This document shows positions 50,097-64,000 of a DNA stretch of 64,000 nucleotides, one piece after another (the stretch's first letter is position 1; each line of letters begins with the position of its first letter). A program made the position numbers and the translations under genes. The notes beneath the pieces were generated by a model that saw only the letters and a program-made list of their open reading frames with translations, was not told the origin of the DNA and did not search any database. Source of the DNA: Trichococcus alkaliphilus (GTDB lineage: Bacteria > Bacillota > Bacilli > Lactobacillales > Aerococcaceae); the NCBI RefSeq assembly GCF_003008695.1, contig NZ_PXZT01000013.1:1-64000 (forward strand). Direction: 5' to 3'.

Positions 50097-50409
50097 TTAT
50101 CCACAACCTTTTTTTTAATACACAATGCCACGGGATAACTCCTGTAGCCTCCTTGATTGCTCACACCTTCGACCCGATTTATCCACATTCCTACAGCATG
50201 TGCATTTCTTCCGAAACCCCACTCCCAAAACCTGTGGAAAAGTGTATCAAACGCTGTAACAATCAACATTTTCAGAACGCGTCATTCCACAACAGACAGT
50301 GGACAACCGCTTCGTCCACAAACCTTGTCCACACCCTCCGCAAGCCTGTGGACAACTATTTATGCACCGGTTAATTGTTTTATTCACAGCTGAAAAGAGT
50401 TGTGGAAAA
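50097..50409. other. oriC, DnaA-box cluster upstream of dnaA
   Basis: Perfect DnaA boxes (TTATNCACA) lie at 50097-50105, 50179-50187 and 50380-50388. One-mismatch boxes lie at 50116-50124, 50233-50241 (minus), 50325-50333, 50347-50355 (minus), 50360-50368 and 50401-50409 (minus). This is the upstream half of a bipartite Gram-positive oriC, and the box at 50401 abuts the dnaA -10. Confidence 0.9.
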
Positions 50410-51807: not shown

Positions 51808-51950
51808 TGTGGATAAGCCAATAAATAAGACGGCATTTACGAACACGTTATCCACAGGTGGAAAACTATTGGTTTTGTCAGCTTCTTTCACTTATCCACA
51901 GTATGAACAGGCCCTACTACTATTACTAATATTATTTAATTTATATTAAT
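51808..51950. other. oriC, dnaA-dnaN half with unwinding element
   Basis: Three perfect DnaA boxes: 51808-51816 (minus), 51848-51856 and 51892-51900. The last is followed by a GC-rich spacer (51908-51913) and trinucleotide repeats CTA-CTA-CTA-TTA-CTA-ATA-TTA from 51914, then an AT-only stretch. This matches the bacterial origin unwinding element (DnaA-trios) described for Bacillus. Confidence 0.9.
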
Positions 51951-51971
51951 AACCATCGGAGGTCCCTTATT

Positions 51972-59970: not shown

Positions 59971-59986
59971 TGTTCCACGTGAAACA
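59971..59986. other. parS site between rpsF and ssb
   Basis: TGTTCCACGTGAAACA, one base from the perfect parS TGTTTCACGTGAAACA; begins 2 nt after the rpsF stop. Confidence 0.8.
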
Positions 59987-60601: not shown

Positions 60602-60844
60602 ATGGCATTTCAACGTAACAGCAGAGGCGGACGCAAACGTAAAAAAGTTTGTTATTTCTGTGCTAACCACATTGATCATGTAGATTACAAAGAGACTGAT
60701 TTATTGAAACGTTATATATCTGAAAAAGGTAAAATTTTACCTCGTCGTGTAACAGGTACATGCGCTAAACATCAAAGAACTTTGACTGTATCTATCAAAC
60801 GTTCTCGTATCATGGCTCTTATGCCATTTACATTAGCAGAATAA
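60602..60844 (+). CDS. rpsR: 30S ribosomal protein S18
   Basis: Basic 80-residue protein; [21 protein letters not shown] at the start and [19 protein letters not shown]. Start ATG 60602 with AGGAGG at 7 nt. Two Cys pairs (CYFC, TCAKH) leave open a zinc-binding S18 type. Confidence 0.97.
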
Positions 60845-60847
60845 TAT

Positions 60848-60882
60848 TAAGGGAGTCGCTTCCAGGAGCGCTCCTTTTTTTG
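60848..60882 (+). terminator. Terminator after rpsR
   Basis: Stem GGAG-CGCT / AGCG-TCC type hairpin with TTTTTTT on the plus strand. Confidence 0.85.
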
Positions 60883-61396
60883 TACCCAAAAACAGGAACT
60901 GAACATGGACACGTGTTGCATCGGATCGGCTATCACGGGAACTCCCCTTTCCCCTCTTTCGGGTACAACTTTTTTTGGACACGCCCTATCTGTTTCTGTT
61001 GAACGATTAGTATGCTCAGGTGAAGCAAACTGTTTGCTTCATCGTTCCGAGTGTCTCCTCCTATGTCTCCTTTAGGTATCACTAAATCAGCTAAGGATAG
61101 ACTATTTTTTTTATCAGGCTGAGAGCGGATCATTCCAATACATCGCTCAATACATGGGATACCCACTTTAAATGCCCTCCCCTACTCTTCACGCTAGCAG
61201 AAAGCTTCCTAGACATTTTTCCATAACCGGCTGGTTATTCTCCATCGGAGGCATAAGGCTAAGCACTAAAATGATTTGATCGGGTCATTTTACCCCTGTG
61301 AGAACGAATTAGCATTAGACTCAGGTAAATACTTCAAATAAGAATACAGGTGCTGTCAGAAGCTAAAATATAGCCGAATTGAATAAAGAAAAATCG

Positions 61397-61436
61397 CCAG
61401 CGCTTAAATGTTCCACGTGGAACATTTAAGCGCTGG
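61397..61436. other. parS site embedded in a perfect 40-bp palindrome
   Basis: The core TGTTCCACGTGGAACA (61409-61424) is a perfectly symmetric parS variant. The symmetry continues 12 bp on each side (CCAGCGCTTAAA / TTTAAGCGCTGG), so the whole 40 bp reads the same on both strands. Confidence 0.85.
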
Positions 61437-62366
61437 TTTGATGCGAAATAATTTTCAGATCGGTCCTAATGAATCCTTCTTAGGGAGTATTGCTCCCAAC
61501 AATTGAAAGCGGGATGCCCAAAAAAACAGCACCTGCTGATCTATGCCCTTGCCTGAAGCGTGTGCTTCAGGTATAAAGAAAACATTTCTGAAAGCAGAAA
61601 GAACTGAGTTGTTGGGGAATGCCCACAGCATACAATCCAGAAAAAATAAAATCTTCCAGTCCATCCATCACCCATCCTATGGTTATCCCGATCAGCAAAT
61701 CGATACAATGATATAAGGCCTGCTGGTGGTGGATCGTAAAAATTAGTAAGAATGAATGAACCATAAAAATAGTGAATCGGCATCAAGGGAAATGCATAAG
61801 CCCGCTTCAACAAATCTAAAAGCGGAAGCAGATACCTGAGATAAGACAACAAAAAGCAGCGACAGACCTCCCCTATCATCGTAAACGCCATATAACAGAC
61901 AGAGATATGTGAAGAAATCAGATTCTTTCCATTATATATTGTAGAGAATCTGAGGACTTAGCATCGGGAGCTATCAAACATCTTAGCCTAAAAGTTGCCT
62001 GTTTTGATACATACATAGCCGTAGAACTTATTAGTAGATGCAGATGATCAGGTTTCGGCCTGTAAAAAGTGTACACGCAAATCTACAGTAAGGACAGGTA
62101 TCATATCTAAAGATAAAAATAGATTGAGACTAATCGAAACTACTCGAGTTAAGGGATACTTTTTCTACGAATTGAGTAATTTGTACCTTCTAAAAGACGA
62201 GAAAGAGGAAGTCTACTCACACCAGACCTTCCTTAGGATGATTGGGCGATTGCGATGCATCAAAATTTAAGTACCGTGCTGGAAGAGCAAAAGACTCTCT
62301 TTTGCATACTATATTAATGAGATGGTTTCATAGACGCATTTGATGTCACTGGAAAGGATCCGTAGG

Positions 62367-62906
62367 TTGTACACAGGCTGATTATATTTTTGTTCTTCAA
62401 TTGTCCACAAAAGGATATGACGATGATCTCGAGACTAATATTACTTCAAAAATAGGATGTGGAAAACTATTTCCCGAAATTTATCCACAGAAGAATCCTA
62501 CTAATACCAACTGGCTTCTGGTATGCATTTGCAAACGAGCGGGAATGACTAAATGCTGGATATACGGGTGACTTCTTCAATATTTAGCAATTTTCATTAA
62601 AATGATAGTAAATTCATCCAAAATAAAGGGCATCATTTCATTAATACACTAATCAAACAAATGTTCAGAAGAAAATGAAGAAATCGGCGTAATATCCCTG
62701 ACTTATACACAGGATGTCCACAGGCATTCGACAGAGACAAAGGTGTCATAAATAGTATCAGAATAATAAGTTATCAACAAAGTCATTTTATGACAGAAAT
62801 CCTACTGTACCAAGGCTAGAAAGTAGTATTTGATTTAGTTATACACAGGAGAACTACGAAAAATGTGCATAACTAAAAAGGTTGGGTATGGTTTGAGTTA
62901 TCCACA
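62367..62906. other. Third DnaA-box cluster
   Basis: Perfect TTATNCACA boxes at 62481-62489, 62703-62711, 62839-62847, 62864-62872 (minus) and 62898-62906. One-mismatch boxes at 62367-62375, 62401-62409, 62458-62466 (minus) and 62772-62780. Eleven kb from the dnaA-linked oriC. Confidence 0.75.
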
Positions 62907-63188
62907 AGAACAGGAGTTGCTACAGGAAAAGGAAACTGAGAAAAGATAGAGAGGATGAAAATCCATTTTCAAGCAAGAAAATGGATTCTGCAGATCATAT
63001 GAAAAAAAAGGAGAACATCGTATAGCTAGATTATTCAAATTATTAGTGAAATAGTAATTGAAGTCACCAGAAAAATCGTTTTCCGTAAAAAAAGCTAATA
63101 GAAGTAATAAATTGAAAGAGAGCGAGTTTATGCCAAAAAATAGCAACAGTAGGAATCAAATCGAAAAAACAACATGATCGAACAAAAA

Positions 63189-63204
63189 AGTTCCACGTGG
63201 AACA
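63189..63204. other. parS-like site
   Basis: AGTTCCACGTGGAACA; matches the symmetric parS variant at 61409 except for the first base. Confidence 0.7.
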
Positions 63205-63264
63205 TCGGTTAAGAAATAAACGTACACAGGATTTGAAGAGAAATTTAAGAGGGTAATCAATAAA

Positions 63265-63280
63265 TGTTTCACGTGGAACT
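63265..63280. other. parS-like site
   Basis: TGTTTCACGTGGAACT; two changes from the perfect parS. Confidence 0.7.
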
Positions 63281-63634
63281 ATTGAAGATAGTAGAGGGAA
63301 TCGCACCCAACTTATAACTATAATAATAATTACATTCGAATCGAAAATGGTAACTATTTTGAGAGATAGATTTTCACGGCGCTCAAATCCGTTAGTAGAT
63401 AATTACCCATCCAAAATGCAGTTATGCTTTGAAAAAATATCCAGAAAAAATGCAGCATTATAATCCAATCTAGTCGATGGCGTAATGAAGACTGGACGGT
63501 AACGTTTGAACCATCGATCCTTGAGCATATATCATCACTGAGTAAATTTATACTTTTCAGTGCCTAAAACATAGCAACGATCCTTCTCGTTCAGAAAATC
63601 TGCTTTCCGAAATACGGACATTATCCAGAGGAAA

Positions 63635-63650
63635 TGTTTCACGTGAAACA
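63635..63650. other. Perfect parS site upstream of gdpP
   Basis: TGTTTCACGTGAAACA, identical to the Bacillus parS consensus. It lies about 115 nt before the gdpP start. Confidence 0.92.
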
Positions 63651-63765
63651 TTCAATTTGATGTTGAGTTGTCAACTAATCCCGTCAGAAAGGGCATTATA
63701 GCTATTATTATCTGAATATGTTAAAATGTACGAGTGCAAAATGTAGGTTCAGTAAAGGAGCTATC

Positions 63766-64000
63766 ATGAAAATAAAGGAAAAGTTAAAGAATCTTCCTCA
63801 CTTCATAAAGGCTGACAAGATTAAGGTTCCTTTCCTGATTATCGTGTTCTTATTGCTGGTGATCGTTGTTTTGACTTTCATTGCAGATTGGAAAATCGGA
63901 ATTGGAATTACGCTCTTATGCGTTGGGATTGTTGGATTCATCAGTTATTCTTCGGAGTATTTGATTGATGAGACAAATCAATACATATCTGACTTATCTT
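63766..64000 (+). CDS. gdpP: Cyclic-di-AMP phosphodiesterase GdpP, N-terminal part
   Basis: Only the first 78 residues are in the window. A basic N-terminus is followed by two membrane helices (about 22-41 and 44-63) and the start of a degenerate PAS region (SSEYLIDETNQYISDLS). In Gram-positive genomes the gene after rpsF-ssb-rpsR is gdpP (yybT), followed by rplI and dnaB/C, which fits. The catalytic DHH domain lies beyond the edge. AAAGGAG lies 7 nt before the ATG. Confidence 0.82.
   Translation, partial: MKIKEKLKNLPHFIKADKIKVPFLIIVFLLLVIVVLTFIADWKIGIGITLLCVGIVGFISYSSEYLIDETNQYISDLS

Follow-up and report, generated by a model that had tools for sequence, protein, structure and literature searches.

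DnaA boxes within a parS array in the gene-free rpsR–gdpP spacer of Trichococcus alkaliphilus: a candidate composite locus of chromosome maintenance

What is the long gene-free spacer between rpsR and gdpP of Trichococcus alkaliphilus kept for? The window that we analyzed covers the initial 64 kb of contig NZ_PXZT01000013.1 (92.7 kb; the genome comprises 2.96 Mb in 25 contigs), and the spacer, 2.9 kb without genes at a distance of 11 kb from the replication origin, is its longest gene-free stretch. Leaving aside the stretch that reaches the window end (from rpsR across the spacer into gdpP), the longest one listed without an ATG-initiated open reading frame (ORF) of at least 130 aa measures 1,528 bp; a preliminary description of this DNA had already called the spacer the only large gene-free stretch of the window, and this holds. 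Gene names are used as given by Pfam matches (rpsR, dnaA, gdpP, rpsF, ssb, and the genes of a TrkA/KtrA-like and an HtrA-like protein). The spacer carries both DnaA boxes and parS sites. The reading that we favor, and to which we give about an even chance, is that of a composite locus serving chromosome maintenance, in which the parS array forms the main ParB-loading centromere and a predicted DnaA-binding (titration) cluster is built into it. As judged from sequence comparison, boxes and parS sites are kept by selection in the genus, occur together across the family, and remain together in rearranged relatives.

Five perfect boxes (TTATNCACA) and five near-boxes lie within 539 nt of the spacer (62368–62906); the preliminary description had counted five perfect and four near-perfect ones in 540 nt, a count that stands with one near-box added. 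In the order of the window they are:

62368–62376, plus strand: weak near-box TTGTACACA, poorly conserved, at background
62401–62409, plus strand: near-box TTGTCCACA, reading TTATCCACA in eight of nine aligned relatives other than G009
62458–62466, minus strand: near-box or DnaA box TTTTCCACA, invariant in 10 well aligned genomes
62481–62489, plus strand: perfect DnaA box TTATCCACA, invariant in 10 well aligned genomes
62703–62711, plus strand: perfect DnaA box TTATACACA
62714–62722, plus strand: near-box ATGTCCACA, reading TTATCCACA in G007 and G011
62771–62779, plus strand: near-box TTATCAACA, invariant in 10 well aligned genomes
62839–62847, plus strand: perfect DnaA box TTATACACA, first member of a convergent pair
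62864–62872, minus strand: perfect DnaA box TTATGCACA, second member of the pair, with a 34-bp span in 10/10 aligned genomes
62898–62906, plus strand: perfect DnaA box TTATCCACA

The motif TTWTNCACA occurs six times in the spacer against a shuffle mean of 0.30, a count reached by none of 200 shuffles, and the reversed motif occurs once; the box density is thus clearly not that of shuffled sequence, and several consensus boxes are gathered beyond chance in a short non-coding stretch outside oriC. Genome-wide there are 76 TTATVCACA sites, which form dense groups at three places only: oriC, the rpsR–gdpP spacer, and the ktrA–htrA region.

The parS sites in and beside the spacer, listed without strand, are:

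59971–59986: parS TGTTCCACGTGAAACA, in the 38-bp rpsF–ssb gap (neighbors matching Pfam Ribosomal_S6 and SSB), 0.9 kb left of the spacer
61409–61424: parS at the center of a 40-bp perfect palindrome (61397–61436), which is also a minus-strand terminator-like hairpin
63189–63204: parS AGTTCCACGTGGAACA
63265–63280: parS TGTTTCACGTGGAACT
63635–63650: parS TGTTTCACGTGAAACA, the sole perfect one of the four in the spacer

Throughout the whole genome, TGTTNCACGTGNAACA with at most one mismatch yields six parS sites, all on the oriC contig (42137, 59971, 61409, 63189, 63265, and 63635): four of the six fall within the spacer, and a fifth is only 0.9 kb away. With up to three mismatches allowed, the whole window holds nine parS-like sites against 0.40 expected. 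The sites flank the boxes on both sides, as had been proposed, with 61409 to the left and 63189, 63265, and 63635 to the right. The single ParB_N gene of the genome (C4:10782-11066) lies on the same contig, at 10.8 kb; the genome therefore has both a ParB gene and a group of parS palindromes close to oriC, as in ParABS systems. The same whole-genome search for ParB_N returned this one gene only, and no Noc paralogue is present by this search.

For the genus we compared 13 genomes including that of T. alkaliphilus itself; G006 gave no match and in G010 the locus is split over two contigs, leaving 11 intact intervals. All 11 are 2.7–4.35 kb long and hold five to seven boxes (TTWTNCACA) and three or four parS sites; in each of them the box count exceeds that of all 200 shuffles, and at most one copy of the reversed motif is present. 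The layout in G010 is alike, with seven boxes on one piece and one parS (at most one mismatch) on each of the two. Comparing the rpsR–gdpP interval across relatives for box spacing, the check suggested in the preliminary description, showed the box places to be kept in 10 of the 11 intact intervals, although the aligned flanks drop to 61% (G007) and 55% (G008) identity with the window in the two most distant genomes. The exception is G009, which aligns poorly (46% identity), has an arrangement of its own, and was left out of the conservation counts; its box assignment is unsure, because the pair aligned to 62458/62481 is 34 bp apart, as are 62864/62898. In G007 and G008 eight boxes, which had been chosen as boxes of the window, have a mean identity of 0.951 versus 0.58 for the 9-mers of the stretch, a value that none of 20,000 random sets reaches. 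Minor alleles in nine boxes (n = 25) are concentrated at position 5 (12), which is the free position of TTATNCACA, followed by position 3 (7) and positions 1 and 7 (three each), with none elsewhere. The boxes are thus conserved by selection, if unevenly from box to box. Ten genomes share sixteen invariant runs of at least 8 bp. Seven of these coincide with boxes or parS, two belong to the rpsR terminator, four lie near the gdpP promoter or start, and three are unexplained, so that boxes or parS make up seven of the ten runs located past the rpsR terminator and before the gdpP promoter region. The three unexplained ones, AT-rich and neither box nor parS, are at 62619 (CAAAATAA), 63026 (CTAGATTAT), and 63317 (ACTATAATAATA). 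None of 15 frames of at least 50 aa (starting at the first M, V, or L) stays stop-free across all ten other genus spacers, and the nearest to a kept frame, one of 51 aa from the rpsR end, is stop-free for 36–52 residues in five genomes. Together with the invariant runs, this agrees with the earlier proposal that the spacer is kept for DNA-binding proteins and not for coding.

Around the rpsR-proximal parS the palindrome extends well beyond the site itself: its perfect arms reach 20 bp or more (28 at most) in 8 of 11 genus genomes; they measure 17 bp in G001 and 13 bp in G008, and G003 has one central substitution. Arms of such length accompany 16 of 43 parS sites in group g1 and 5 of 52 in group g8. 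At positions 9–20 from the center, 118 of 120 cells pair (10 distinct rows) and 31 are changed on both sides, whereas 2,000 reshufflings of the rows gave a mean of 74 paired cells (maximum 102) and 5.6 double changes (maximum 22), statistics that ignore the kinship of the rows. The arms covary across the genus, with pairing kept while the letters change; copy-correction of the palindrome without selection could yield an equal pattern. An A-rich run left of the palindrome is present in 11/11 genus sequences, fitting a minus-strand terminator. Inspection by eye shows a leftward promoter-like site (TTAACA-18-TATAAT, 63695–63724) in each of the 11 genus sequences. A non-coding transcript could run leftward from it and end at the parS palindrome; we do not claim one, because the site coincides in part with the gdpP promoter region and shows no obvious conservation in group g12.

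The wider family set consists of 76 genomes, with rpsR in 73 (none in G006, G043, and G077); because the G010 locus is split, 72 loci were examined. Adjacent gdpP defines 59 family intervals, and 13 loci have no gdpP in the stretch (G019, G048, G049, G050, G055, G057, G058, G060, G070, G074, G089, G090, and G091), five of which (G048, G049, G050, G055, and G057) were resolved with longer stretches. At least one parS (at most one mismatch to any of four variants) is found in 55 of the 59 intervals. Two or more boxes occur in 28 of the 59, all of them with parS (g1, 11; g8, nine; g12, five; g9, g10, and g27, one each); two have one box (G023 and G072), and 29 have none, of which 25 are only 113–286 bp long. 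Among the 36 intervals of at least 350 bp (34 from the family and two others), 28 have box counts that at most two of 200 shuffles reach, and in eight (G015, G021, G023, G025, G061, G069, G072, and G078) more than two shuffles do so. Group g8 is Aerococcus-like. In its nine genomes with adjacent gdpP and all places listed, partly draft assemblies, 45/45 exact TGTTNCACGTGNAACA sites lie inside the interval, together with four to nine boxes. Six further g8 genomes lack gdpP next to rpsR, and in five of these the boxes and parS are found together just upstream of gdpP, in a stretch free of ORFs of at least 120 codons (boxes/parS: G055, 3/5; G049, 4/4; G057, 3/5; G048, 3/2; G050, 3/11). Boxes and parS have thus remained joined despite the separation of rpsR from gdpP. 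For G019, the sixth genome, and for G089–G091 (g34), the query found no gdpP within the examined stretch. The gdpP of G055 looks split into two frames.

Outside the family, parS lies downstream of rpsR in 28 of 45 loci from eight other families (f2, 11/11; f3, 6/10; f6, 5/7; f8, 6/7; f4, f5, f7, and f9 together, 0/10); three f3 loci with an interval length of 0 (gdpP start extrapolated into rpsR), in which parS is not judgeable, are counted as misses. Alkalibacterium sp. MB6 and Enterococcus lemanii are examples with parS soon after rpsR. Two or more boxes between rpsR and gdpP are found in 3 of the 45 loci: G034 and G181 (f3), which share the same layout with parS, and G109 (f7). In the last of these (locus L241), whose interval lacks parS, four boxes fall into about 320 bp on the downstream side of rpsR. 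Because 28 of these loci have parS and only three have two or more boxes, parS at the rpsR–gdpP place is more widespread than the boxes and probably predates them. A quickly built GdpP tree requires five changes of the label "two or more boxes", at least four of them forced by well supported branches; the tree has long branches, does not tell gains from losses, and leaves out 3 of 76 rows shorter than 450 aa, and its box labels for G010 (6) and G050 (2) differ from recounts (seven and three) within the same class.

The second DnaA-box cluster outside oriC lies on contig 23 between ktrA and htrA (G000:C23:71801-72329, corresponding to L143:7802-8330): nine TTWTNCACA boxes are found at L143 8010–8330 and a tenth inside ktrA, without any parS. 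The stretch is present in 12 of 13 genus genomes, and these 12 loci keep most boxes at similar spacing, again without parS, at about 370 kb (G001) or 317 kb (G005) from dnaA. Both this cluster and that of the spacer contain a convergent box pair 24–25 bp apart. Beyond oriC itself, then, two clusters of DnaA boxes seem to exist in the genus, of which only one lies within the centromere.

How would a centromere with built-in DnaA boxes work? DnaA would bind the box cluster, which would be doubled very soon after firing, being only 11 kb from oriC, and could then take up free DnaA and damp re-initiation, a role also proposed for datA and for the B. subtilis DnaA-box clusters; ParB clamps loaded at the flanking parS sites would slide over the box DNA, and DnaA occupancy and ParB traffic may affect each other, as RctB and ParB2 reportedly do at rctA/parS2 of Vibrio cholerae. 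Coupling of DnaA and ParB at the spacer is an inference. Of the roles offered in the preliminary description, a datA-like sink and a ParB–DnaA hub are both viable candidates, and the combination of boxes with parS recurs across the family. A bolder form, which we hold only tentatively and at clearly less than an even chance, is an initiator–centromere switch in Firmicutes: sliding ParB clamps would strip or stabilize DnaA, and each time the centromere is duplicated and segregated free DnaA would be reset, coupling initiation to partition in cis, the association having been acquired or re-made more than once at the rpsR–gdpP place (f1 and f3).

Several observations weigh against a composite locus of this kind. 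The boxes are unevenly conserved, with 62368 at background and 62401, 62703, and 62714 only among the top 15–20% of 9-mers, and their fixed spacing is only mildly above background and suggestive only (of 844 random placements of a 34-bp span, 199 show no change). Another cluster, at ktrA–htrA, is conserved in the genus without parS. The counts from the other families (28 of 45 with parS here, only three with two or more boxes) imply that the boxes are dispensable for the centromere. In Bacillus subtilis, according to the abstract of PMC7614844, ParA control of DnaA is independent of parS position and parS near oriC is not needed; excerpts of PMC5295017 call the role of the B. subtilis clusters not significant, with a strong effect only when all six are gone. 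It is an open question whether replication start and partition communicate via DNA that they share, and most work on it concerns Caulobacter, Vibrio, and Bacillus; at this spacer initiation and partition may be tied together at one place. Both site sets sit in a single small gene-free locus found repeatedly across the family, and natural relatives keep the centromere without boxes; for these reasons the coupling can be tested by removing the boxes alone or the parS sites alone.

The same anatomy, DnaA boxes in a parS region a few kilobases from the origin, could instead reflect a segregation trigger, in which box-bound DnaA commits the centromere to separate or move, as in Caulobacter, with titration as a side effect. 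There, DnaA too low for replication can still start partitioning, for which a DnaA site inside parS is required (Mera 2014, via excerpts of PMC6399470 and PMC4468827), and the persistence of boxes with parS in the rearranged g8 genomes would fit such a trigger. Nevertheless, we consider it unlikely: with 28 of 45 loci of other families holding parS at this place and only 3 of 45 two or more boxes, segregation does not generally need the boxes.

Another account is mere co-residence, an expanded gene-free spacer near oriC tolerating two unrelated site sets, a plain box cluster and a parS array. The existence of the ktrA–htrA cluster without parS, the four boxes without parS in the interval of G109, and the wider spread of parS at the rpsR–gdpP place are all as this account would have it. 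However, boxes and parS recur jointly in g1, g8, g9 (G020), g12, g27, and f3 (G034 and G181), they remain joined where gdpP has parted from rpsR, and the box label needs five changes on the GdpP tree, at least four of them forced. Every one of the 28 family intervals that hold at least two boxes has parS, yet so do 55 of 59 overall. Box-less intervals of 549–671 bp also exist (G015, G025, G061, and G069), so length alone does not bring boxes. On balance co-residence seems improbable to us.

That the spacer is an auxiliary replication origin or origin element, as the preliminary description had offered, is very improbable. The normal bipartite oriC flanking dnaA is confirmed, with boxes upstream of dnaA at 50097–50409 and a second group between dnaA and dnaN at 51808–51900; the latter part is:

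51808–51955, plus strand: genuine oriC part in dnaA–dnaN, with boxes, the DnaA-trio-like CCTACTACTATTACTAAT, and an AT-rich element

Here three boxes are followed by CCTACTACTATTACTAAT and then by the AT-rich stretch, making oriC complete. AT-rich stretches adjoining the box cluster are nearly as unstable as the oriC element, which is what an auxiliary origin would call for: the least stable 50-mer scores -51.6 at oriC (rank 14 of 63,950), -53.7 in the box cluster (at 62578, rank 76 of 63,950), and -53.5 elsewhere in the spacer (at 63309). The trio-like CTACTAATA at 62498–62506, next to a box and earlier taken for an echo of the DnaA-trio, is present in the window but lost in relatives, and with it the auxiliary element loses support, the oriC at dnaA–dnaN being intact. 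A plasmid origin was rejected, the search having given no plasmid match.

The borders of the spacer are formed by the following features:

60602–60844, plus strand: rpsR, left border (Pfam Ribosomal_S18, E 5.2e-26; ORF from 60572, start set at 60602)
60857–60880, plus strand: rpsR intrinsic terminator, from a scan for terminator-like elements, mostly invariant in 10 genomes
63766–64000, plus strand: gdpP, right border, running past the window end (Pfam of the full gene including flank: PAS_GdpP, GGDEF_GdpP, DHH, and DHHA1)

A DnaA-controlled regulatory region of gdpP (or rpsR) is hardly credible, although the boxes stay on the gdpP side in the rearranged g8 genomes, given that in the window 0.8 kb separates them from the gdpP promoter region downstream, that in g8 they are mostly near rpsR, and that 29 of 59 family intervals have none. 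Just right of the rpsR terminator, 60880–61000 shows C-rich loops (CTCCCCTTTCCCCTC) with closing arms GTACCC/GGGTAC and then a T-run, small-RNA-like by eye and without an Rfam match. Rfam at gathering scores gave no match over 45–64 kb, and at E up to 1 a sole, 23-bit chance match on the parS palindrome, which also has the lowest energy in a scan for conserved RNA structure (z-scores unusable, several shuffles being without variance); a weaker hairpin lies at about 62.9–63.0 kb.

Clusters of DnaA boxes (DBCs) outside oriC were reportedly described in B. subtilis by Okumura et al. in 2012. They are a parallel from a Firmicute, and removal of six leads to early initiation; unlike the spacer, they are not associated with parS in any excerpt of PMC5295017. 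Escherichia coli datA, DARS1, and DARS2 are likewise non-coding box clusters acting on DnaA away from oriC, but datA and DARS2 depend on IHF (DARS2 also on Fis), and a centromere is not mentioned in the excerpts of PMC5742627; the DARS core described there, three boxes at fixed spacing with box I opposite to II and III, is not matched in the spacer, whose tight triplet runs plus, minus, plus (62839, 62864, and 62898). In two further systems initiator and centromere meet. In Caulobacter crescentus, DnaA binds within the centromere region, with parS within 8 kb of the origin (Mera et al. 2014; excerpts of PMC4468827 and PMC6399470), and the spacer likewise has DnaA boxes inside an origin-proximal parS region; Caulobacter differs as an alphaproteobacterium with a polar anchor, whereas here, in a Firmicute, some ten boxes and near-boxes are clustered in gene-free DNA and flanked by parS on either side. 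At rctA/parS2 of V. cholerae chromosome II, an initiator-binding locus adjacent to the origin seems to titrate, contains an embedded centromere site, and is counteracted by ParB2 (excerpts of PMC6399470 and PMC4468827), although the initiator is RctB rather than DnaA and the replicon is the secondary chromosome of a Gram-negative. An arrangement of this type, predicted initiator sites with embedded parS, is seen in the spacer with a different initiator. We found no description of such a DnaA-box/parS locus in searches of an open-licence library, which lacks most subscription papers. Each half of the locus is of a known kind, and the combination of initiator sites with a centromere is, within the reach of these searches, new in Firmicutes.

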